Below, one piece after another: positions 11,251 to 50,658 of a stretch of 64,000 nucleotides of DNA. The position numbers and the translations under genes are program-made. The DNA comes from a virus: the IMG/VR virus record IMGVR_UViG_3300023181_000029, positions 1-64,000 of that record, one strand, 5' to 3'. Each line of letters opens with the position of its first letter. The first letter of the stretch is position 1. A model generated the notes under the pieces. That model was not told where the DNA came from. It made no database searches and saw only the letters and a program-made list of their open reading frames with translations.

Positions 11251-11780
11251 CCCTAGGAGCCGTAATAGTAGAGAACCGTTTAAATGGCGCGTTCTCGTTA
11301 GCATGGAAGTCAGTTGAGAAACTAGGCATACCAATGGTGCATTTCGATAATCCCGATATTAAATCGCTGGAAGACTACAATAAACTATTAACCACGCCTG
11401 ATTTTTGGGAGAACATAGCGTTTGATAAAATACTGATATTTCAAAGTGATTGTCGTGTGTTACGCACCAATATTCAAGACTTCATTCAGTATGATTACGT
11501 TGGTGCACCGTGGGACTTTCAGCAAGACGGCGGTAATGGCGGATTATCGCTCAGAACCAAATCCGTTATGTTGGATGTTATTAAAAACCACCCACGCGCA
11601 AAAGGCATGAATGAGGATATTTATTTCTCAAAGTATATACCTGAACATGGTAAATTAGCGCCGCGTGACGTGTGTATGAGATTCTCCGTTGAAACAGTTT
11701 ATTATCCGACACCATTTGGAATACATGCGCCGTGGAAATGGCTACCAGTTGAACAGGTTAAAAAGTTAATGGTATCGTGA
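11247..11780 (+). CDS. DUF5672 glycosyltransferase-like protein
   Basis: A 177-aa protein with the blocks of DUF5672: DKILIFQSDCRVLR near residue 62, YDYVGAPWDF near 83, GGNGGLSLRTKSVML near 96 and NEDIYFSKYIPEHG near 123. The DUF5672 family is predicted to be a GT-A glycosyltransferase. The Q-S-D would be the metal site and NGGLSLR the acceptor loop. It is the fifth of six transferase-like genes and is coupled to both neighbours by 4-base overlaps. Confidence 0.75.
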   Translation: MTLGAVIVENRLNGAFSLAWKSVEKLGIPMVHFDNPDIKSLEDYNKLLTTPDFWENIAFDKILIFQSDCRVLRTNIQDFIQYDYVGAPWDFQQDGGNGGLSLRTKSVMLDVIKNHPRAKGMNEDIYFSKYIPEHGKLAPRDVCMRFSVETVYYPTPFGIHAPWKWLPVEQVKKLMVS

Positions 11781-12619
11781 ACGGCGTAGCTATTATAGCA
11801 CTAGGCAATAAGGTCTACGGACAGTATGCTTTCAATCTTGCATTGTCAATCAAATGGAACGACAACGCGCCTATCGCTGTGATACACGATAATACTTCGC
11901 TTGAATCATTGTCACATGAGCAATTAGCTTATTTCGACCACCTCATTGAGTGTAAAGAGGATTTTAAAGGCGAATATCAGAAATGCAAGTTTCTTTTGCA
12001 CAAACTAAGTCCATTCAATAGAACCCTGTATATAGACGCAGACAGCCTTTGGTGTCCACATCATACTTTAGACCCGTTTTTAACACATGATATACCATTG
12101 CAAAATAACTTTGCAATATCAACTTGCGGGTACTATAACATAAAAGAGGATAAATCCACGTCAGACAAGTATATGTATTGGGGTAGCCCTTATGAAACTG
12201 CAAAATATTTTAACATTATTGAGGGCAAAATGCCAAAAACATTTGCAGGGTTCTTTATCTTTGATAAGTGCGAGGCGGTAGATAGGGTATTTGAACGGGC
12301 ATTAGAGGTTTATGAATCGAATGCTCCATGTTCAGAATGGAATAATGGTAAGCCTGACGAATACTGTTTTAATGTTGCGCTGATAGATTATCCTTTAGAT
12401 TACGATTGGTGTCCTCAGTATTTTGACCACTTTATAGGATTCAAAACGCACCACCAAATAAAGAAAGAGTTTTGTTCTTTCGGTATGGCGGGACATAAAT
12501 CACATCAGTATATAAAAGACCTGTATAATTCGCTGATAAAACAGTACGGCAACAAGAGAATTGAAACATTTGAATACGTAGATAAAAACACAGTGCTAAA
12601 AAGTAGAGAAGTATGGTGA
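11777..12619 (+). CDS. glycosyltransferase family 8-like protein
   Basis: A 280-aa protein. It opens GVAIIALGNKVYGQYAFNLA, has LSPFNRTLYIDADSLWCPHH near residue 76 with the D-A-D motif, and FAGFFIFDKCEAVDRVFERA near 154, then DEYCFNVALIDYPL. This is the order seen in GT-A enzymes of the family 8 or stealth-like kind. GTG start at 11777. It may add the last sugar in the pathway encoded by this island. Confidence 0.7.
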   Translation: MNGVAIIALGNKVYGQYAFNLALSIKWNDNAPIAVIHDNTSLESLSHEQLAYFDHLIECKEDFKGEYQKCKFLLHKLSPFNRTLYIDADSLWCPHHTLDPFLTHDIPLQNNFAISTCGYYNIKEDKSTSDKYMYWGSPYETAKYFNIIEGKMPKTFAGFFIFDKCEAVDRVFERALEVYESNAPCSEWNNGKPDEYCFNVALIDYPLDYDWCPQYFDHFIGFKTHHQIKKEFCSFGMAGHKSHQYIKDLYNSLIKQYGNKRIETFEYVDKNTVLKSREVW

Positions 12620-14481: not shown

Positions 14482-15079
14482 GCAGGAAGACTTCAAGAAG
14501 ATGCGCTATAACCCAATGGAAGTTCCAAAGGGCACTAGTCTATTAGACCACTATCCGACGCTTAAACTTTATAAGGAGCTTGACAAAAAGGTAGTAGGGT
14601 TTGACGCTGATAAAATACTATCCTACGTTATATTCCTAATAGATGACAATTCGCCGTTCTTTAAAGTAGAGGATTTCGCGCAAAGGCACCGATTGGCCGC
14701 GCAGCAAGCCGGACTAAAGGAAACCGACATTGAAAAGCTGGATATAAAGAGTAACGTTGCCCTTAATTCGATATTCTCAGGCTATCTGCGGGTAGTAAAC
14801 AGCGATGACTTTACGTTGTGGTTTTCTTTAAAGCAGAACTTCTACAACAACACTGAAATGATACGCGATGCTACACTTGAGGGCAACGACCCCGTAATGG
14901 CGGTAAAGCGTAAACAGGAAATAGGCATAGCGCTTAAAGATTCCCTGAACACAATCCGCGACCTAGAGGCTAGATTGTTTAAGGACGAAAGAATAAAGGA
15001 TAGGGTTACGCAATCAGCAATGATAGAAATGGTTAACTGGACAGAACGTTTGGCTGACCCATCAGGCACAGTACATTGA
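14471..15079 (+). CDS. hypothetical protein preceding TerL (candidate small terminase)
   Basis: A 202-aa mainly helical protein with a GTG start. It begins FKQEDFKKMRYNPMEVPKGT, has a central helical stretch with DFAQRHRLAAQQAGLKE, and a C-terminal helix (MIEMVNWTERLADPS). It lies directly before TerL, with the TTG start of TerL overlapping its stop, which is the usual place for a small terminase subunit. No helix-turn-helix is certain, so the role is inferred from position only. Confidence 0.5.
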   Translation: MKFKQEDFKKMRYNPMEVPKGTSLLDHYPTLKLYKELDKKVVGFDADKILSYVIFLIDDNSPFFKVEDFAQRHRLAAQQAGLKETDIEKLDIKSNVALNSIFSGYLRVVNSDDFTLWFSLKQNFYNNTEMIRDATLEGNDPVMAVKRKQEIGIALKDSLNTIRDLEARLFKDERIKDRVTQSAMIEMVNWTERLADPSGTVH

Positions 15080-17199
15080 GAGAATACACGATTAGTTGGC
15101 ACCAAGGCTTAACAAAGCAAATCGGCGAGTTTCAGGTTCCTATACCTGACATGCCGGAGCCTAAAGATATTATCAACTACGGACTACCGGCGCATAAGCA
15201 GTTCTTTGTTCGCACTATTATCCCAGAGGATATAATCACACGCACCTGTTCGCTACAAGTTGAAGAAAAGTTTGTTGAGCGAGAATGGCACCGTAGGCGT
15301 AACGGCGTATGGATGTATATTAAGGGTGAAGCACATTGGCTCCCCGGCAAGTTCTACTACTTTATGAATTACTGGACGTGCGAGTATGGCGGGTTGCCGC
15401 ACTTCCGTTTAGTGCAATTAAACGTAGCTCAGTTCTGGGAAATGTGCGTAGCTGATAAAGATTGTTTTGGAATGCTACTCATAAAGCCACGTAGGGTAGG
15501 CGGAACAGAATATGCGCTATGTGATACAGCCGAACATACTACTAGGGTAGATGAGGCTAGGGCAGGTATGCAAAATATGACTGACGACGACGCGAAAGCA
15601 GATGTCACGCGTATTAACAAGGCGCTAAAGAAGATGCCTCACTACTTTTTGCCGGTAATGGCAACTCCGTTTACCTCAAAAGATAAAGTGGTGTTCGACA
15701 TACCTAGCGAGCGTCAAACTAAAGCAAAATCACAAGAGAAGTTTAAGAGAAGCGCTGAGAATAAGGGTATTAAGGTGCTAGGGTCTGAAATAATCATCGA
15801 GGCAACAAAAATATCAGGCTTCGACGGTAAACGTTTAACGCGCCACAGGTTAGGTGAGTGCCTAAAAATAGACCCCGCGCGGATGAACATTAAGACGCAA
15901 TGGAATAACGTGCGTATGTGTATCTCGTTAAATAACGGGCAAGATTTAGTAGGTAAGGGCTATTGGGAATCTACAGTAGAGCAGGCGGAGGGCGGTAAAA
16001 ACAAAGAACTAACCAACTTAAAGCAGGTTCAAGAATTATGGGAAGAATCAGACCCTATGATTCGCGATAGGAACGGGCGCACATTATCTGGCATGTACCG
16101 TCTGTTTATTGATGCATCACAAGCCGCCAAAGTGGATGAATACGGATATCCTGAATCAGAGAAAACGGTTAAATTCCTATTGCAGCAATGGGAAGACTGG
16201 ACTAAGAAAGGAAAGTTTGACGATGTTTTGATTGACCAGCGCAAAAACCCGCTCACAATAGAACACGCGCTTACTCCAAGTAACGAGCAATGCCCATTCT
16301 TACCTCAGATACTAAAAGAAAGACTAGGCAAGATATTCCAAGGATTAGACTATAGAGGCGAAACTACCGATGTATTTGGGCGCGAAGTAAAAGATAAGGT
16401 AGGGAAATTTAATCTTATCCGCGAAGGCGGTCAGCAGGATGGTCGGGTTATCGCGGTTCCTGACCCTGAGAATGGACGGTGGGAAATGCTACTAGGACAC
16501 CCAGAAGAAACCAACAAATCGACGTTCTCAAACAACGCCAAATATCCTACCAATACCGATAAGTATTGTATGGGCGTTGACCCTTACGATGACGCTACTA
16601 CTGCCTCAGTCTATCATAGGTCAAAGGGAGCCTGTGTAGTATTTAGGAAGTTTGATTCATTATTAGATGGCAACAAATACGATGTAGTTCAAACTACAGA
16701 AGGCGAAATACAAAAACCACTTGCAGGACAGTATGCGTCGTTTATGCCCGTAGCAGTCTATGTGCACAGGCACGACAACCCTAAGCATTTCTATGAAGAC
16801 ATGGTAATGACGGCTCAATTCTTTGGATGTGAAATGCTACCTGAAACTAATAAGAAACAAATCATACCATACTTCCAAGAGCGAGGTTACGGTAGTTACA
16901 TAATGTATCCACCGGGCTATATGTTAGACGGCAAAACAGTTCGACAGCCGGGGCTTGCATCTTCTACCAACGTAATAGAGGACTACATGCAAAAAATTCA
17001 AGCATACGTATCCGAATATGGCGACGCTATACATTTTGCAACGCTACTGAAAGATTTATTAATGTTCACTCCCGCCACACGTAAAAAGCGGGATTTATCA
17101 GTAGCATTCGGCTTTGCATTGATAGCCAACTCAAATCTATTTGTTCAGGAACTAGACGACGATATATCAACGTTCACCCTAGACTTCCATACTTTGTGA
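15076..17199 (+). CDS. terL: terminase large subunit
   Basis: A 707-aa protein with a TTG start overlapping the upstream TGA. A Walker A-like P-loop is at about residue 136 (IKPRRVGGTEYALCD), where the usual GK is replaced by GG; the preceding region (HWLPGKFYYFMNYWTCEYGG) is typical of long TerL proteins of Bacteroidota phages. The C-terminal RNase H-like nuclease begins near residue 498 with YCMGVDPYDDATTAS. It drives ATP-dependent packaging into the prohead through the portal encoded next. This is the packaging enzyme of this phage and differs from the orphan nuclease at 48024. Confidence 0.9.
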   Translation: MREYTISWHQGLTKQIGEFQVPIPDMPEPKDIINYGLPAHKQFFVRTIIPEDIITRTCSLQVEEKFVEREWHRRRNGVWMYIKGEAHWLPGKFYYFMNYWTCEYGGLPHFRLVQLNVAQFWEMCVADKDCFGMLLIKPRRVGGTEYALCDTAEHTTRVDEARAGMQNMTDDDAKADVTRINKALKKMPHYFLPVMATPFTSKDKVVFDIPSERQTKAKSQEKFKRSAENKGIKVLGSEIIIEATKISGFDGKRLTRHRLGECLKIDPARMNIKTQWNNVRMCISLNNGQDLVGKGYWESTVEQAEGGKNKELTNLKQVQELWEESDPMIRDRNGRTLSGMYRLFIDASQAAKVDEYGYPESEKTVKFLLQQWEDWTKKGKFDDVLIDQRKNPLTIEHALTPSNEQCPFLPQILKERLGKIFQGLDYRGETTDVFGREVKDKVGKFNLIREGGQQDGRVIAVPDPENGRWEMLLGHPEETNKSTFSNNAKYPTNTDKYCMGVDPYDDATTASVYHRSKGACVVFRKFDSLLDGNKYDVVQTTEGEIQKPLAGQYASFMPVAVYVHRHDNPKHFYEDMVMTAQFFGCEMLPETNKKQIIPYFQERGYGSYIMYPPGYMLDGKTVRQPGLASSTNVIEDYMQKIQAYVSEYGDAIHFATLLKDLLMFTPATRKKRDLSVAFGFALIANSNLFVQELDDDISTFTLDFHTL

Positions 17200-17256: not shown

Positions 17257-19764
17257 TTGCCGGATTATTTAGCCAATCAGTTTCTCAATACGTCTGATTT
17301 TATGGGAGGGAACCACCCCTTTCCAGACGAGAATATTGACCCCAAAAAGAAAGGCAAGGATTACTGGTTAAAAGTAGTCTACGCTACTTGGCACCTATAC
17401 CTGAACAACAGGTGCATTGTGCCGTATAATTTCCCGTCAACAGGGTTTGATGATTCGGAATATTCTATAGACGAGCAACGCGCATATGCAACCGGCAAAA
17501 TAAACGTCAACAAATACAAGCCATTATTAGCGCAACTATCTAAATCAACGCACCCTGTATTGGCTGGCAAGACCATGATGAATATTTCATGGAGGCAGGT
17601 TCCTATCATTCCTAAGTTCGTAGACATTGCCAAGGGAATGTTTATGCAGATGGATTACGACTTCGACGTTAATTCTGTTGACGCGCGCGACGTAGAAGAA
17701 AAGGAATTGCAAAAGGCGTTCTATAAAGTAGAGCACAATATAGAGTACCGCAAGTTCGTAGCGGGCATGGAAGCATTGGGTGTTCAGGTAAATAAAGAGG
17801 CCAAGGATAAGTTTGAGAGTGAAGCCCAAGTAGACCTAGCAGCAATGATGGGCATGTTTAAGGTAGCTCACGAAGCCGAACTATACACAGCGCTTAAAGC
17901 TACTATGGACGCTAGTTCATGGGACATTATTAAGGATAAGCTGTTTGAGGATTTAATATCTGTTTCCAAGACTGCTACTTGCACATACGTAGAGCCTAGT
18001 ACCCAAACAGTAAAAACCCGTTGGGCTGATATACGCAATGTCATCAGCAGGAAGTCTCCGTATGAAGACGGTCGTACTATTGACTGGATAGGCGAAATAA
18101 GATACAATGTAACTATCTCAGAACTTCGTGAGCAATTCAAGGTCGAGGAAACTACATTGCGTAAAATAGTGAAGGACTATTCGCAGATGCGGAACTGGAA
18201 CGCCACCAATATATACAATACAGTATATCAGGGGCAGTCATACGCGCAGAACGGATTCTATAGTTACGATGGATTTGGTGTTGACTTGCTTGAACTATAC
18301 TATATATCCGGTGATACCGAAAAGTACACCGAGGTATACAATAAGAAAAAAGCCAGAACCTCATTCAATAAAGTAGGTAACGATTATCAGGAAAGCGAGG
18401 AAGGCAAGAAAGACGGCAAGAAACTGAGTACCGTTCGCGAGGAAAGACTATATAAGATAGTATGGGTTGTAGGCACTGACATATTAGTAGAATGCGGATT
18501 AGCGCACGATGTACCATATCAGGACGGCAAACCAATGTTGCCTATTCAGGTCTATGATACAAAAACCGTTTCCCTAGTTTCCAGAATGATAGGGTTTCAG
18601 GACGACATAAACCTTGCTACTTATAAATTTAGAAATGCACTAGCTAAAGTGCCGCCACCGCCACGCATGCAAGTAGAGCAACGTTCTATATCGAATGTTA
18701 CGCTTGGCGGCACTAAGATGAAGGAAACGGACGTTATTAATCTGTTCGGAGAATCGGGCTTATTCCTTATGAATAGCCTGAATGACCACCGCCAACCGAA
18801 TAGCGCGACACCCGGCAGACCTGTTACATACTTACAATCAGGTATAGCAGAAGACTTCGGAATGTTTATTCAGACCATAGACCACAACATCAATATGATG
18901 CGACTGGTAATAGGCATGAATGAAACCGCTGACGGTTCTACTCAGGGCGAAAGAAAAGCAGTAAGGGTAGCGCAAATGGAAATGAATAGCACTAATAATG
19001 CTTTGTTTCCTATACAGCGTGGCTATATATCAATCTTTGAGCGCACAATGGACGTTGCTATGTGCAAGTGGCAGATAGTAGCAAGCGGCGGCAAAGAAAT
19101 AAAATACAAGGGGCTTAATCAGTCTACTTACGATATTATTAAATTAGGCGCAACACATAGTGCGCGTAATTTCGGCTTAAAGGTTAAAATCCTGCCGACC
19201 AAAGAAGAACTGAAACAATTCTTGGTGAATATCGAGAACATGTACGCAGGTCGCCAACAGACAGGACAAGGCGGTATTAGCTACGAAAAATACATCATCC
19301 TCACTAGAATAATTCAAACCGGCAACCTAGACCTTGCTCAGTTGATGGCTGTTCAATTGGTCAACAAGCAACGCCAAGAAGACGCAGAAACCAAAGCGCA
19401 GGATGTACAACTAAATGCTGACCAGCAAATACAATCAGCACAAGCCGCCAACGAAATGAAGATGGGCGAAATCCAGATGGAAATCGACCTGCAACTCAAG
19501 GCTGATATGCAGATGAAAGATTTGGATTTCCAAATGAAAGAACTGGAATCGCAACTTAGAATGCAGGAAATGATTTTGCAAAGTAAACTTGCAAAAGGCG
19601 AAATAGAAACTGTAGAGCAGTTTGAAACTATGCGCACCACTATGAAGTTAGCTATTCAGGAACAGAAGGACGCTTTAATGGCGGCAACTCAAATAAAGAT
19701 AGCTGAAATATCCGCAGCAGCTAAGAAACAAACTGCTAACAAATCGAGCAAGAAAGTTGCGTAA
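17257..19764 (+). CDS. portal protein
   Basis: An 835-aa protein with a TTG start. Length, position between TerL and scaffold, and composition fit the portal of podovirus-like Bacteroidota phages. The stem-type region includes LINLATYKFRNALAKVPPPP-like segments near residue 450 (seen as DDINLATYKFRNALAKVPP), then NMMRLVIGMNETADGSTQGE. From about residue 690 to the end the sequence is a long Gln/Met/Glu-rich coiled coil (QIQSAQAANEMKMGEIQMEI), probably the helical barrel. Twelve copies would form the ring through which DNA enters. The call is by position and size; no single motif is decisive. Confidence 0.8.
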   Translation: MPDYLANQFLNTSDFMGGNHPFPDENIDPKKKGKDYWLKVVYATWHLYLNNRCIVPYNFPSTGFDDSEYSIDEQRAYATGKINVNKYKPLLAQLSKSTHPVLAGKTMMNISWRQVPIIPKFVDIAKGMFMQMDYDFDVNSVDARDVEEKELQKAFYKVEHNIEYRKFVAGMEALGVQVNKEAKDKFESEAQVDLAAMMGMFKVAHEAELYTALKATMDASSWDIIKDKLFEDLISVSKTATCTYVEPSTQTVKTRWADIRNVISRKSPYEDGRTIDWIGEIRYNVTISELREQFKVEETTLRKIVKDYSQMRNWNATNIYNTVYQGQSYAQNGFYSYDGFGVDLLELYYISGDTEKYTEVYNKKKARTSFNKVGNDYQESEEGKKDGKKLSTVREERLYKIVWVVGTDILVECGLAHDVPYQDGKPMLPIQVYDTKTVSLVSRMIGFQDDINLATYKFRNALAKVPPPPRMQVEQRSISNVTLGGTKMKETDVINLFGESGLFLMNSLNDHRQPNSATPGRPVTYLQSGIAEDFGMFIQTIDHNINMMRLVIGMNETADGSTQGERKAVRVAQMEMNSTNNALFPIQRGYISIFERTMDVAMCKWQIVASGGKEIKYKGLNQSTYDIIKLGATHSARNFGLKVKILPTKEELKQFLVNIENMYAGRQQTGQGGISYEKYIILTRIIQTGNLDLAQLMAVQLVNKQRQEDAETKAQDVQLNADQQIQSAQAANEMKMGEIQMEIDLQLKADMQMKDLDFQMKELESQLRMQEMILQSKLAKGEIETVEQFETMRTTMKLAIQEQKDALMAATQIKIAEISAAAKKQTANKSSKKVA

Positions 19765-44985: not shown

Positions 44986-45459
44986 ATGGATAAGGTAACA
45001 CTAGATAGAATCCAATTGCTTCACCCCAAATTGCGGGTTGAGGCTTTGGCTATTTATACTGAAATATGCGCTGCATTAACAGGTACCGTTATTTGCCGCT
45101 TTACCCATACGCTTAGGACGATAAAGGAGCAAAACGACTTGTACGCTATTGGGCGCACTAAGCCGGGTAAAATTGTGACTAATGCTAAAGGCGGCACATC
45201 GTACCATAACTACGGACTGGCGATAGATATTTGCTTAATTATCAACGGCAAAGAAGCATCATGGGACACAGTTAAGGATTTTGATGCTGATGGAACTGCT
45301 GATTGGATGGAAATAGTACTTATATTTAAGAAGCATGGTTTTGAGTGGGGCGGTGACTGGAAGTTTAAAGACTATCCGCATTTCCAAAAGACTTTCGGAT
45401 TAACTATAAAGCAATGTCAGGCTTTGGTAACTAAAGAACCTTATATACAGATAGTATGA
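44986..45459 (+). CDS. endolysin, M15 family peptidase
   Basis: A 157-aa protein with the M15 (VanY/CwlK-like) core: CRFTHTLRTIKEQNDLYAIG, then GGTSYHNYGLAIDI with the H-x(6)-D zinc motif, and FEWGGDWKFKDYPHFQ with the closing W-G-G-D-W...D-x-P-H-F. All the expected metal ligands are present. It cuts peptide stems of peptidoglycan at the end of infection. There is no signal peptide, so it needs the holin-like proteins encoded next for release. Confidence 0.92.
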   Translation: MDKVTLDRIQLLHPKLRVEALAIYTEICAALTGTVICRFTHTLRTIKEQNDLYAIGRTKPGKIVTNAKGGTSYHNYGLAIDICLIINGKEASWDTVKDFDADGTADWMEIVLIFKKHGFEWGGDWKFKDYPHFQKTFGLTIKQCQALVTKEPYIQIV

Positions 45460-45662
45460 GCATAAAGAAACCTAAAAGTTGGAGAACGACAGTTTTAGGC
45501 TGTATAGGAGCCGTTATAATGGCTGCGGTTCCGTTTTTACAGCAAGACAGCTTTGAAATTTCAAAGGATTGGAAGTATCTTGCCGCTGCTGTATTAATAG
45601 CCCTTTATGGTGCTGTGTCAAAAGACGCTCAGGTATCTGGAAATGGAACTAAGCCGCAATAA
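45456..45662 (+). CDS. holin-like small membrane protein
   Basis: A 68-aa protein with two hydrophobic stretches (residues about 12-27, VLGCIGAVIMAAVPF, and 41-54, YLAAAVLIALYGAV), a basic start and a soluble tail. Size, topology and location directly after the peptidase fit a small holin or holin-associated protein. It overlaps the peptidase by 4 bases. Confidence 0.65.
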   Translation: MSIKKPKSWRTTVLGCIGAVIMAAVPFLQQDSFEISKDWKYLAAAVLIALYGAVSKDAQVSGNGTKPQ

Positions 45663-46197
45663 CGATAGAGTGGTAAAGATAGCTATGTGGGTTTTACGGC
45701 AATATAACATGACAGAAATAATCTGTGCGGAAAATCTTCAATATCTGCTAAAGAATACTATACTGGTGTCTATTGGGTTCTTTGCTATCGTGGAACTAAT
45801 AATAGATTATCCTGTACGGCTTATGGCTGTATTTGTTATATTGGGTATATTTTGCGACCTAACTTGTGGAATATGGGCGAATTGCTGGAAGGGTGACGAA
45901 AAAATTAGCCCTAAGAAAATAGCAACCTCGATAGGCTATGGAATATACCTAATATCACTGATAGTGCTGCTTTCTTACTTCAAATACATCATTAGCGTGG
46001 TGGAACTGAAATGGGGACACGATTTGTTAGTATTCAGCGTAGACGCGCTTTTTATAACGAGTATTAGTATTTTTTTTATATCCCTTGTATTAAACATAGT
46101 ATCAAATGGCGCAAAAGTTGGAGTATATGGGTGTAGAAGGCTTGCTAAAGTACTAAAATTGAAATTAGACCGAATAAGTGATGACAACGGTAATTAA
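45643..46197 (+). CDS. phage holin family-like membrane protein
   Basis: The frame opens at 45607; the ATG at 45643 is preferred to limit overlap with the upstream gene, and others at 45686 or 45710 are possible. There are about four membrane helices (ILVSIGFFAIVELIIDY; LMAVFVILGIFCDLTCGIWA; GIYLISLIVLLSYFKYII; VDALFITSISIFFISLVLNI). The 'FDLiTGiwa..k.g..isS.k...t..K' pattern of Bacteroidota phage holins is seen as IFCDLTCGIWANCWKGDEKI. It would form the membrane lesion at lysis. Confidence 0.65.
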   Translation: MELSRNNDRVVKIAMWVLRQYNMTEIICAENLQYLLKNTILVSIGFFAIVELIIDYPVRLMAVFVILGIFCDLTCGIWANCWKGDEKISPKKIATSIGYGIYLISLIVLLSYFKYIISVVELKWGHDLLVFSVDALFITSISIFFISLVLNIVSNGAKVGVYGCRRLAKVLKLKLDRISDDNGN

Positions 46198-46660: not shown

Positions 46661-46807
46661 CCATCCAAATGCAGATTTTAACGCCAAATAAAACGTACTA
46701 TACGACATTAGGTTACTATGCTTATCATCGCTATCTAGCCCGTAATAATATAATGCCTGCTCCCTTATAGGCTCTGGCAATCTATCTAACCATTGTGCTA
46801 TTGTCAT
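46568..46807 (-). CDS. LPEP-type small phage protein (79 aa)
   Basis: A 79-aa protein: AQWLDRLPEPIREQALYYYG at the start, a middle with FYLALKSAFGWAETEQGYDYW. It is related to the 70-aa protein at 59887 (LPEPYRAQALENH ... FYWAFDWDGSTERFDYW): both share LPEP-R-x-Q-A-L and the [FW]-x-W...[YF]-D-YW pattern. Such proteins are frequent in Bacteroidota phages and have no known function. Its 3' end is the part duplicated at 1-97. Confidence 0.75.
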   Translation of the reverse strand: MTIAQWLDRLPEPIREQALYYYGLDSDDKHSNLMSYSTFYLALKSAFGWAETEQGYDYWEAIASTMLQSNTPTELTPTV

Positions 46808-47028
46808 TTCTTGGTGGTTTCAAGTTCAATTATAAAATCAGGCTTGCTTAGCTGTAGGGTGTAGCCGTAGTGGTTGAATAGCTTTACCATGTCGGGGAAC
46901 TTAGGTACCCATAAGCCTTTCTCATACTTGCGGTAGGCTACCGTGGATACCCCCATGCCTGATGCTGCTTCGCTTTGTTTTTGCTTGTGTAGCTTACGAT
47001 AGTGGGTTAATAGTTCGGGTGTGGTCAT
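46804..47028 (-). CDS. XRE-family DNA-binding protein
   Basis: A 74-aa protein with a classic helix-turn-helix of the XRE/Cro type: LLTHYRKLHKQKQSEAASGM followed by GVSTVAYRKYEKGLWVPKFP, then DMVKLFNHYGYTLQL. It probably binds an operator in the leftward control region. It overlaps the gene downstream by 4 bases and is preceded by a 21-aa frame with one base between. Confidence 0.75.
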   Translation of the reverse strand: MTTPELLTHYRKLHKQKQSEAASGMGVSTVAYRKYEKGLWVPKFPDMVKLFNHYGYTLQLSKPDFIIELETTKK

Positions 47029-47937: not shown

Positions 47938-47956
47938 GTTTGTGGTTTTTGTCTTA

Positions 47957-47988
47957 CAAATATAACACAAAGGTTTTGATTTAGCAAG
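47957..47988 (-). promoter_or_regulatory. leftward promoter of the 46368-47937 operon
   Basis: On the minus strand: CTTG (47985-47988), 20 bp, TATATTTG (47957-47964). The leader to the ATG at 47937 is about 15 bases. Confidence 0.7.
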
Positions 47989-48023: not shown

Positions 48024-48737
48024 TTACCGCTTCTGCTTCTCGATGAAGTTGGCAAAGTAGGTATTATCCATGTAGCGGAGCGTGTCAAGCAAGTGGGTGC
48101 GCTTTAAATCCGTTTTCACCATGCGCCCTTCCTCTATAGCGTCTTTCATCAACTTGCCTGATTCCCAGCGCACTAGCCTCATGTCCTCAATAAGGTTATA
48201 GCAGCTGGAATGAAACTTCCTGTTAGGGTGGCGGCCAAGTATCGTATTTGATAAAGTCCGGCTCTCGCTTACATTGGGGTTGGAGCGGGTTACATCAATC
48301 TTTGCGGGCTTTAGCACTTGCTGTACTATTTCCCAATCCCGGAACCTGGATGAGGTCTTACGTGCCCAGCCGCTACTATCACCGGTGCATCTTATGTGGC
48401 AATGCCCTAACTCGGCTTTAATCCTTTCGCATAGCTTTTCAGTGTTGCTATCGTTCAAATTATATTCCTTGAGCGTATAGTACCAGCCATCCCCGTACTG
48501 ATGCACAGAGCATGTTATAGGATCTACGTTAAAGTCAAATGACAAGTAAACGGTAAGCCGTGGGTTGATAGTTATTGAATCGTCAATAAAGGATTCATCC
48601 CAGCAGTACATAAATGGATTCGTAACCTCTGTATGGCCCCATTCGCCTTTAAAGTATATCCGGTAGTAGTCATAGATGAACACAAAAGTAATCATCGTAA
48701 TTGGAATTATAAACAAGAGCCTGTCAAGCAACATCAT
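48024..48737 (-). CDS. ATPase-less, membrane-anchored terminase nuclease domain
   Basis: A 237-aa protein. Residues 7-22 are one hydrophobic helix (LLFIIPITMITFVFIY). From residue 24 it follows the C-terminal half of a Bacteroidota large terminase: the linker YYRIYFKGEWG, then VYLSFDFNVDPITC (D68), HIRCTGDSSGW (D120), the SNPNVSESRTLSN-type loop, CYNLIEDMRLVRW and RTHLLDTLRYMDN (D218). All three acidic positions expected of the RNase H-like nuclease are kept. No Walker motifs are present. TerL of this phage is at 15076, so this is a second, partial terminase from another lineage. It lies in an operon with two membrane proteins and an HNH gene. Confidence 0.75.
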   Translation of the reverse strand: MMLLDRLLFIIPITMITFVFIYDYYRIYFKGEWGHTEVTNPFMYCWDESFIDDSITINPRLTVYLSFDFNVDPITCSVHQYGDGWYYTLKEYNLNDSNTEKLCERIKAELGHCHIRCTGDSSGWARKTSSRFRDWEIVQQVLKPAKIDVTRSNPNVSESRTLSNTILGRHPNRKFHSSCYNLIEDMRLVRWESGKLMKDAIEEGRMVKTDLKRTHLLDTLRYMDNTYFANFIEKQKR

Positions 48738-48892
48738 TGTAAAACACTTAAGCAGGTTACCATAAGGACTATTAAAGACAGTATAAGCGTAAAACTAGTA
48801 AAGGCAATAGTATAAACATGAGCCTCAAATTTGCGTCGCCCGCCATAGCTTGCTAAATACCTATTATTCCAGAGTGTAATAAATTCCCTCAT
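48734..48892 (-). CDS. small single-pass membrane protein (52 aa)
   Basis: ATG at 48892 and TGA at 48734 overlap both neighbours by 4 bases. The product has a polar start (MREFITLWNNRYLASYGGRR) and one membrane helix (YTIAFTSFTLILSLIVLMVT). It may hold the downstream nuclease at the membrane. No family recognised. Confidence 0.6.
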   Translation of the reverse strand: MREFITLWNNRYLASYGGRRKFEAHVYTIAFTSFTLILSLIVLMVTCLSVLQ

Positions 48893-49119
48893 AAGGTGCG
48901 GTTTTTAGCTTTCATATCAAGCAAACCGTTCAATACAGTCAAGATATAATTAGCACCAATTAGGTTAACGATAGGAATAAATGCAACTATCAGTAATGGT
49001 TTCTTCTTAAAATTCTCATCCTGCCGGGCTGCCCAAAACGTAAAGCATACAATAACAAGCAATGGGAATACGTATGCAAATACACTAATCCATAAATACT
49101 CCTCGTTAGTAAACTCCAT
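48889..49119 (-). CDS. small two-pass membrane protein (76 aa)
   Basis: A 76-aa protein with two membrane helices (residues about 9-29, WISVFAYVFPLLVIVCFTFW, and 42-62, LLIVAFIPIVNLIGANYILT) and a charged loop. It is the first gene behind a strong leftward promoter at 49138. Translation is coupled to the 52-aa membrane protein and on to the terminase-like nuclease. Confidence 0.65.
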   Translation of the reverse strand: MEFTNEEYLWISVFAYVFPLLVIVCFTFWAARQDENFKKKPLLIVAFIPIVNLIGANYILTVLNGLLDMKAKNRTL

Positions 49120-49137
49120 AGCCGTGGTTTTGTCCTA

Positions 49138-49168
49138 CAAATATACACCTTGCTTTCTATTGTGCAAA
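49138..49168 (-). promoter_or_regulatory. strong leftward promoter before the membrane/nuclease operon
   Basis: On the minus strand: TTTG (49165-49168), 19 bp, TATATTTG (49138-49145), the best consensus pair in the window. It lies between the HNH gene and the gene at 49119, so the operon can be transcribed without the HNH gene. Confidence 0.8.
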
Positions 49169-49187
49169 TTTTTGTCGTACAAATATT

Positions 49188-49631
49188 TTACTTCTTTACG
49201 TCAATGCGAGTTTTAGCCTTATGACATGACTTGCATAGTCCTTGAAAATTCCACAAACCCATTCCGCCACCGCCTTTATGAACCGGCAATATGTGGTCAA
49301 CATCATCAAAGCCTTCTACGCCGCAATGTTTACAGAAATCCCCTTGAGTAATATACAACATACGCCGTATAGACGAACTATCAGAGGAGCATAACCGCCA
49401 TAACCACTCTAATGTAGAAGCACATTCGCTAGAAGACCAGCGCGTTTGACGACCTGTAATCGGTGTTCCGCAGCCACAATCGCATAATCCATCGTTCTTA
49501 GGCGGCAATAATCTAGTAAAGAAATTAGATGTCTTTTGTCTGCGGCTGTATGGATTAATAATACCATCAGCAACCAACTTATTAAATCGGGCTAAATCAT
49601 AATTGGCTACTATTTGTGGTATTGTATCCAT
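49188..49631 (-). CDS. HNH endonuclease
   Basis: A 147-aa protein. The N-terminal part has a cysteine cluster (LCDCGCGTPITGRQTRW, C50-C54), which looks like a zinc-bound recognition element. The HNH core runs from residue 100: FCKHCG, then DDVDHILPVHKGG (D112, H113) and LWNFQGLCKSCHKAKT. All core residues are in place. In phages HNH proteins of this size often sit near terminase genes and help packaging. Here the neighbour is a terminase nuclease fragment, suggesting both came from one source. Confidence 0.85.
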   Translation of the reverse strand: MDTIPQIVANYDLARFNKLVADGIINPYSRRQKTSNFFTRLLPPKNDGLCDCGCGTPITGRQTRWSSSECASTLEWLWRLCSSDSSSIRRMLYITQGDFCKHCGVEGFDDVDHILPVHKGGGGMGLWNFQGLCKSCHKAKTRIDVKK

Positions 49632-50433: not shown

Positions 50434-50658
50434 ATGATTAGTAAAAGCCCACTTTTGGCAAAAGACATACTTAAGGAAGCACGTAAAAGGCGTAAATTGA
50501 CGCTATCGCAGGCCGCAATAGTTACTAAAATTAAGGCATCGACACTATCAAGGTATGAAAACGGCAACAGAAAGATATCAGCAGATGACTTTATAAGTAT
50601 TTTGGGTTATTATAGTGCTCATATTGCCATTATTGAGGCAGATTTTCTATTAACTTGA
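50434..50658 (+). CDS. XRE-family repressor
   Basis: A 74-aa protein with a clear helix-turn-helix of the XRE type: LAKDILKEARKRRKLTLSQA, AAIVTKIKASTLSRYENGNR, KISADDFISILGYY. It is a single DNA-binding domain. Matching 28-bp inverted repeats flank it at 50354 and 50749, each next to a promoter, so it probably represses itself and the gene at 50819. It may act as the phage's central switch or limit early expression. Confidence 0.85.
   Translation: MISKSPLLAKDILKEARKRRKLTLSQAAIVTKIKASTLSRYENGNRKISADDFISILGYYSAHIAIIEADFLLT

Follow-up and report, generated by a model that had tools for sequence, protein, structure and literature searches.

The 237-residue open reading frame (ORF) at 48024-48737 on the minus strand joins, in a single frame, a hydrophobic N-terminal segment to the nuclease domain of a large terminase (TerL). 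The gene lies in a 64,000-nucleotide stretch of viral DNA (the window) that belongs to a record of 78,594 bp. It is probably a mosaic gene made by recombination, in which an intact fragment from another phage was imported and is now carried mainly as a passenger. The TerL-homologous part (residues 23-237, 48027-48671, minus strand) comprises the end of the interdomain linker and the RNase H-like nuclease with D68, D120, and D218 present. Residues 1-22 (48672-48737, minus strand) form a leader without TerL homology that may be a transmembrane helix. The N-terminal ASCE ATPase of a TerL, with its Walker A and Walker B motifs, is found neither in the ORF nor anywhere in the record, so the ORF is not a complete TerL. 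The sequence-only reading, which had described a terminase nuclease with one hydrophobic helix in place of the packaging ATPase, is thus borne out by 51% identity to a full-length TerL and by a hydrophobic start of about 21 residues.

The nuclease domain

TerL loci were collected from viral contigs by a pattern scan with the motifs EWG and FDFNVDP, the best of them being L035 (viral contig IMGVR_UViG_3300038701_001089), and an alignment-based scan added 80 loci. In a single comparison with the full-length TerL of L035 (424 aa), residues 23-232 of the window protein are 51% identical over 210 residues (E 1e-73). The TerL domains of many further loci match the ORF at about 27-38% identity, and the TerL proteins of known phages at roughly 25-29%. 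In the close alignments the similarity starts at about residue 22-27, which corresponds to the end of the linker that follows the ATPase.

The three putative catalytic residues lie in the motifs SFDFNVDP (D68), TGDxxG (D120), and HLLDxxRY (D218) and are invariant across 39 aligned nuclease domains, in agreement with what had been noticed from the letters alone. Of 19 alignment columns without variation in 37 other TerLs, the window protein matches 18. In the tree, a fully supported split sets the window protein and its full-length sister apart from the rest; with branch lengths of 0.597 and 0.590, respectively, the two are equal, and the TerL piece shows no sign of decay.

The AlphaFold model (39 sequences) has a mean pLDDT of 86.5, and most values within the domain exceed 90. 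Foldseek places the D6E TerL at the top of the matches to this model (7e-10), followed by the nuclease domains of P22, SPP1, and G20c (to 8e-5), and the HCMV and T4 terminases are also among the matches. By homology and by its modeled RNase H-like fold the ORF is a TerL nuclease domain, for which DNA cleavage is a prediction. Compared with the L035 TerL, the protein carries about nine additional residues around positions 200-208, where AlphaFold gives short strands. For a β-hairpin of TerL nucleases, a function as activity switch has been proposed (PMC7617512), and the stretch with the insertion may correspond to this hairpin. Pfam matched no family to the ORF, even at E 1. The label “Terminase_6C-like,” under which a profile search had been suggested, is therefore not upheld; the full-length relatives match Pfam Terminase_3 in their ATPase half.

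The missing ATPase

A total of 119 TerL frames were recovered from the loci, with some contigs counted repeatedly. ATPases are present in 108, ten run into the 5′ end of their contig, and one is short; this one is the window's, the only short frame that is not cut by a contig edge. Among 396 Bacteroidota genomes, 16 of the 17 matches lie in frames of 410-476 aa, and the remaining one (217 aa) begins at a contig end. Relatives are thus full-length wherever the contig does not cut them, which the sequence-only reading had granted would count against it if joined to a frameshift in the window; the ORF, however, carries no frameshift.

A frameshifted or scattered ATPase was rejected, because a profile built from 84 distinct full-length TerLs finds the ORF alone in the record, with the next match being noise. 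The ATPase half of the source TerL family was not found in the 78,594 bp. Together with the identity to L035, the lack of an ATPase remnant in the record upholds the suggestion that the ORF is a nuclease-only piece from another type of phage. Single-protein scans revealed no close relatives of the ORF, the neighboring HNH protein, or the neighboring 76-aa ORF in viral contigs, and none of the ORF in the genomes. Matches in Kagunavirus and Vibrio were considered as possible split TerLs, and the two that were checked (Schulenburg and SSP002) are ordinary full-length genes.

The hydrophobic leader

Residues 1 to about 21, for which TerL proteins have no counterpart, are hydrophobic. In 19-residue Kyte-Doolittle windows the best mean is 2.17 at residue 3, and the maximum past residue 30 is 0.69. 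AlphaFold gives a helix at residues 3-29 that is poorly determined (residues 1-30, mean pLDDT 47-66 per block). The ORF also contains the in-frame internal starts M15 and V19, from which a protein lacking most of the hydrophobic helix could be made. Of the proposed membrane-tied nuclease, the single hydrophobic helix therefore stands, while the tethering is put in doubt by the low pLDDT and the internal starts; anchoring of the nuclease by this predicted helix is plausible. The possibility that the leader is frameshifted TerL sequence was dismissed, since the other frames, judged by eye, do not resemble the L035 linker. A degenerate pattern scan of viral contigs for the peptide across the leader–nuclease junction found none.

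The resident terminase

The phage has its own complete TerL at 15076-17199 (plus strand), which matches phrog_6681 (E 2e-64) and is of the elemovirus/Cellulophaga podovirus type. As the sequence-only reading had stated, a complete and different terminase is encoded at 15076, and its family is another one. The resident TerL keeps the acidic residues conserved in its group (D502, E574, and D673), which may be its catalytic residues. It adjoins the portal gene of the phage at 17257. The 237-aa ORF is located beside neither TerS nor portal and is surrounded by small ORFs on the minus strand.

An HNH gene from the same kind of module

An HNH endonuclease gene (147 aa, 49188-49631, minus strand; Pfam HNH, E 1.6e-7) lies about 0.5 kb upstream of the TerL-nuclease ORF. 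Its product is 47% identical over 139 residues to the HNH protein of L035 (234 aa). The gene order in L035 is TerS, HNH, TerL, and the HNH and TerL genes overlap by four bases. The two window genes match adjoining genes of L035 at 47% and 51% identity, respectively, which indicates that both are pieces of one HNH-TerL module. The HNH partner had been overlooked in the sequence-only reading; with it, the import concerns pieces of a module rather than one domain alone. In place of the L035-type ATPase part and the tail of the HNH protein, the window has a stretch of about 0.5 kb in which two small membrane ORFs follow a promoter-like site. A relative of the L035 TerS, or a remnant of it, was not found in the 78,594-bp record.

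HNH and TerL nuclease are the only blocks of such strength shared between the L035 genome and the phage. The next best match to L035 is that of 11762-12619 (plus strand), whose product is distantly similar (24% identity, E 1e-14) to a protein of the L035 genome at G001:30712-31506 and has no Pfam match. HNH proteins are a known component of packaging machines, as in HK97, where gp74 promotes the cleavage of cos by TerL (PMC9410871). With its HNH motif and the TerS/TerL adjacency of its homolog in L035, the window HNH protein is a putative packaging-associated HNH protein. The HNH protein of locus L143 was discarded as a relative because of its weak similarity and because no TerL adjoins it in the stretch examined. 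Among the PADLOC defense profiles, none matches the TerL-nuclease ORF, and those that match the HNH protein do so only weakly and in part (best E 0.0034).

Gene neighborhood

A promoter-like match of the Bacteroidota type, TTTG-N19-TATATTTG (49138-49168, minus strand), fits the Bacteroides consensus (PMC7366714) and lies 18 bp upstream of a 76-aa ORF (48889-49119, minus strand) that has hydrophobic stretches and no convincing relatives. It is followed by a 52-aa ORF with a single hydrophobic, probably transmembrane stretch (48734-48892, minus strand) and then by the TerL-nuclease ORF. The starts are connected by ATGA-type overlaps: the 52-aa ORF overlaps the next start, and its stop overlaps the start ATG of the TerL-nuclease ORF.

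An 18-bp direct repeat (TATATTTGTARGACAAAA) occurs in three copies on the minus strand (47947-47964, 49128-49145, and 49170-49187), with a chance expectation of 0.35 in the window. The −7 element of the promoter-like site falls inside it. The copies lie at the borders of the run of small genes, where they might act as recombination points for gene cassettes. Misassembly was considered in view of the repeats at the flanks of the run, which are short.

Small HTH_3 proteins are encoded on either side of the minus-strand run (46804-47028, minus strand; 50434-50658, plus strand). The former has a weak match to the MqsA antitoxin and may be part of a regulatory or toxin–antitoxin pair. At 44986-45459 (plus strand), shortly before the minus-strand block, lies the gene of a D-alanyl-D-alanine carboxypeptidase of the Peptidase M15/VanY type, which is likely the endolysin. 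The product of 45607-46197 is holin-like by eye and has no Pfam match.

Codon composition

The ORF has a GC3 of 0.571, compared to a mean of 0.397 (sd 0.039, maximum 0.471) in 37 other genes. This outlier value marks the TerL piece as foreign and points to a fairly recent arrival. The HNH gene (0.358) and the small ORFs (0.32-0.39) do not depart from what is usual in the phage, so the TerL piece may be a later arrival and the two module pieces may not stem from one event. GC3 does not change at the junction, as the value of the leader (12 of 21 codons) equals that of the TerL part; the leader may therefore have arrived with the TerL piece and not from the resident operon. Total GC falls from 0.46 to 0.33 at the junction, but base composition was not accepted as a boundary, since this drop is confounded by the hydrophobic codons and is not mirrored in GC3. 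The argument that intact catalytic residues speak against decay turns out to be weak: a recent acquisition looks alike, and GC3 points to one.

Origin and possible roles

The likely source is a phage of Bacteroidota whose packaging module was of the Terminase_3 type, in the order TerS-HNH-TerL. Two pieces of this module, the core of the HNH gene and the nuclease-coding C-terminal half of TerL, now sit on the minus strand of an unrelated podovirus, past the lysis end of its late genes. There the TerL piece is fused in frame to a short hydrophobic leader and closes a series of small membrane ORFs that begins with the promoter-like site. The fragment appears to be recent, probably transcribed, and mostly a passenger. 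Packaging would be carried out by the resident TerL, with no part played by the fragment. As there is no ATPase, there is no DNA translocation, and a role as packaging motor is excluded on present knowledge. Without the ATPase that grips the DNA, the protein, if made, would cut weakly and unspecifically at most. Several observations sit uneasily with a mosaic passenger. The open frame, the ATGA overlap, and the promoter-like site resemble an organized operon rather than debris, and both nucleases keep their catalytic motifs. A single origin of the two pieces is weakened by the HNH gene, whose GC3 is no outlier like that of the TerL piece, so that separate events may be involved. The equal GC3 of leader and TerL part may mean that the leader was not taken from the resident operon.

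The same organization could be read as a selected nuclease pair, in which the HNH protein and a membrane-tied TerL nuclease cut the DNA of incoming or co-infecting phages with a source-type packaging system, possibly at their packaging site. Two nuclease genes of one module have stayed close with intact motifs behind a promoter-like site, and by analogy HK97 gp74 shows that an HNH protein can assist TerL at cos (PMC9410871). This selected function is nevertheless unlikely. No second example was found in viral contigs, TerL loci, or Bacteroidota genomes, the ORF has no defense-family match in PADLOC, and such a nuclease would endanger the phage's own DNA. None of the results points to superinfection exclusion, which the sequence-only reading had put forward for a membrane-held nuclease. 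Isolated TerL nuclease domains are also reported to be poor enzymes, with that of SPP1 being less active than the full enzyme and that of P22 inactive (PMC5389553). Separated T4 terminase domains, in contrast, are reported to retain their functions (PMC9958956). In view of these reports, the earlier premise by which terminase nucleases need the hold of the motor in order to cut is too absolute. Nuclease activity would not be needed if the fragment acted as a dominant negative that poisons packaging in a co-infecting source-type phage by binding to its portal, HNH, or TerL. The natural C terminus and the linker end retained in the fragment would suit this role, but it has the same lack of a second example, would not call for conserved catalytic residues, and would be hindered by a membrane anchor in reaching the capsid; we regard it as rather improbable. 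Cutting or dominant-negative action on rivals that use a source-type terminase is possible but conjectural. That a motorless, membrane-tethered TerL nuclease and an HNH protein form a phage competition system, assembled from a rival's packaging parts to cut or poison rivals of that packaging type, is doubtful.

A pure relic that is undergoing decay and is never made as protein would account for the lost ATPase and the unique architecture, and the resident TerL with its own conserved acidic residues needs no help. The intact frame, the 18 of 19 conserved columns, the rate that is not raised, and the promoter-like site with overlapping starts make such a relic improbable as well, to the same degree as the selected nuclease pair. 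In PHROGs, one TerL family has the size of the ATPase (3717) and another that of the nuclease (10250), which shows that cut or split TerLs occur among phage records, and the ORF could accordingly come from a split terminase, with the ATPase half encoded at another site. This is very unlikely, since no ATPase half of the family is present in the record (which may be incomplete) and the phage already has another complete TerL.

If the mosaic gene is a passenger, which is more likely, it is a clear case of terminase modules breaking up and spreading among unrelated phages and a warning against classifying a phage by one terminase match alone. If it is functional, it would be a packaging nuclease used outside of packaging and a natural test of TerL nuclease action without the ATPase.

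Comparison with known terminases

The L035 TerL is the closest counterpart, with a nuclease half that is 51% identical and an HNH neighbor of the same kind. In contrast to the window protein, it has an ATPase (Pfam Terminase_3, E 2e-44) and an upstream TerS, where the window protein has its hydrophobic leader of about 21 residues instead. A weak match connects residues 53-233 of the ORF to phrog_10250 (E 0.0019), a TerL family of 228 positions that covers the nuclease half only. The HNH protein resembles HK97 gp74-type proteins in its gene association: these are associated with TerL, as is the HNH protein in L035 and next to the TerL nuclease in the window. Unlike them, the window HNH has no complete TerL of that type alongside. 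The TerL nucleases of SPP1 (G2P), P22 (gp2), G20c, and D6E have the RNase H-like fold in common with the ORF. The SPP1, P22, and G20c domains were, however, excised from full-length enzymes by experimenters, whereas in the window the gene itself encodes the nuclease alone.
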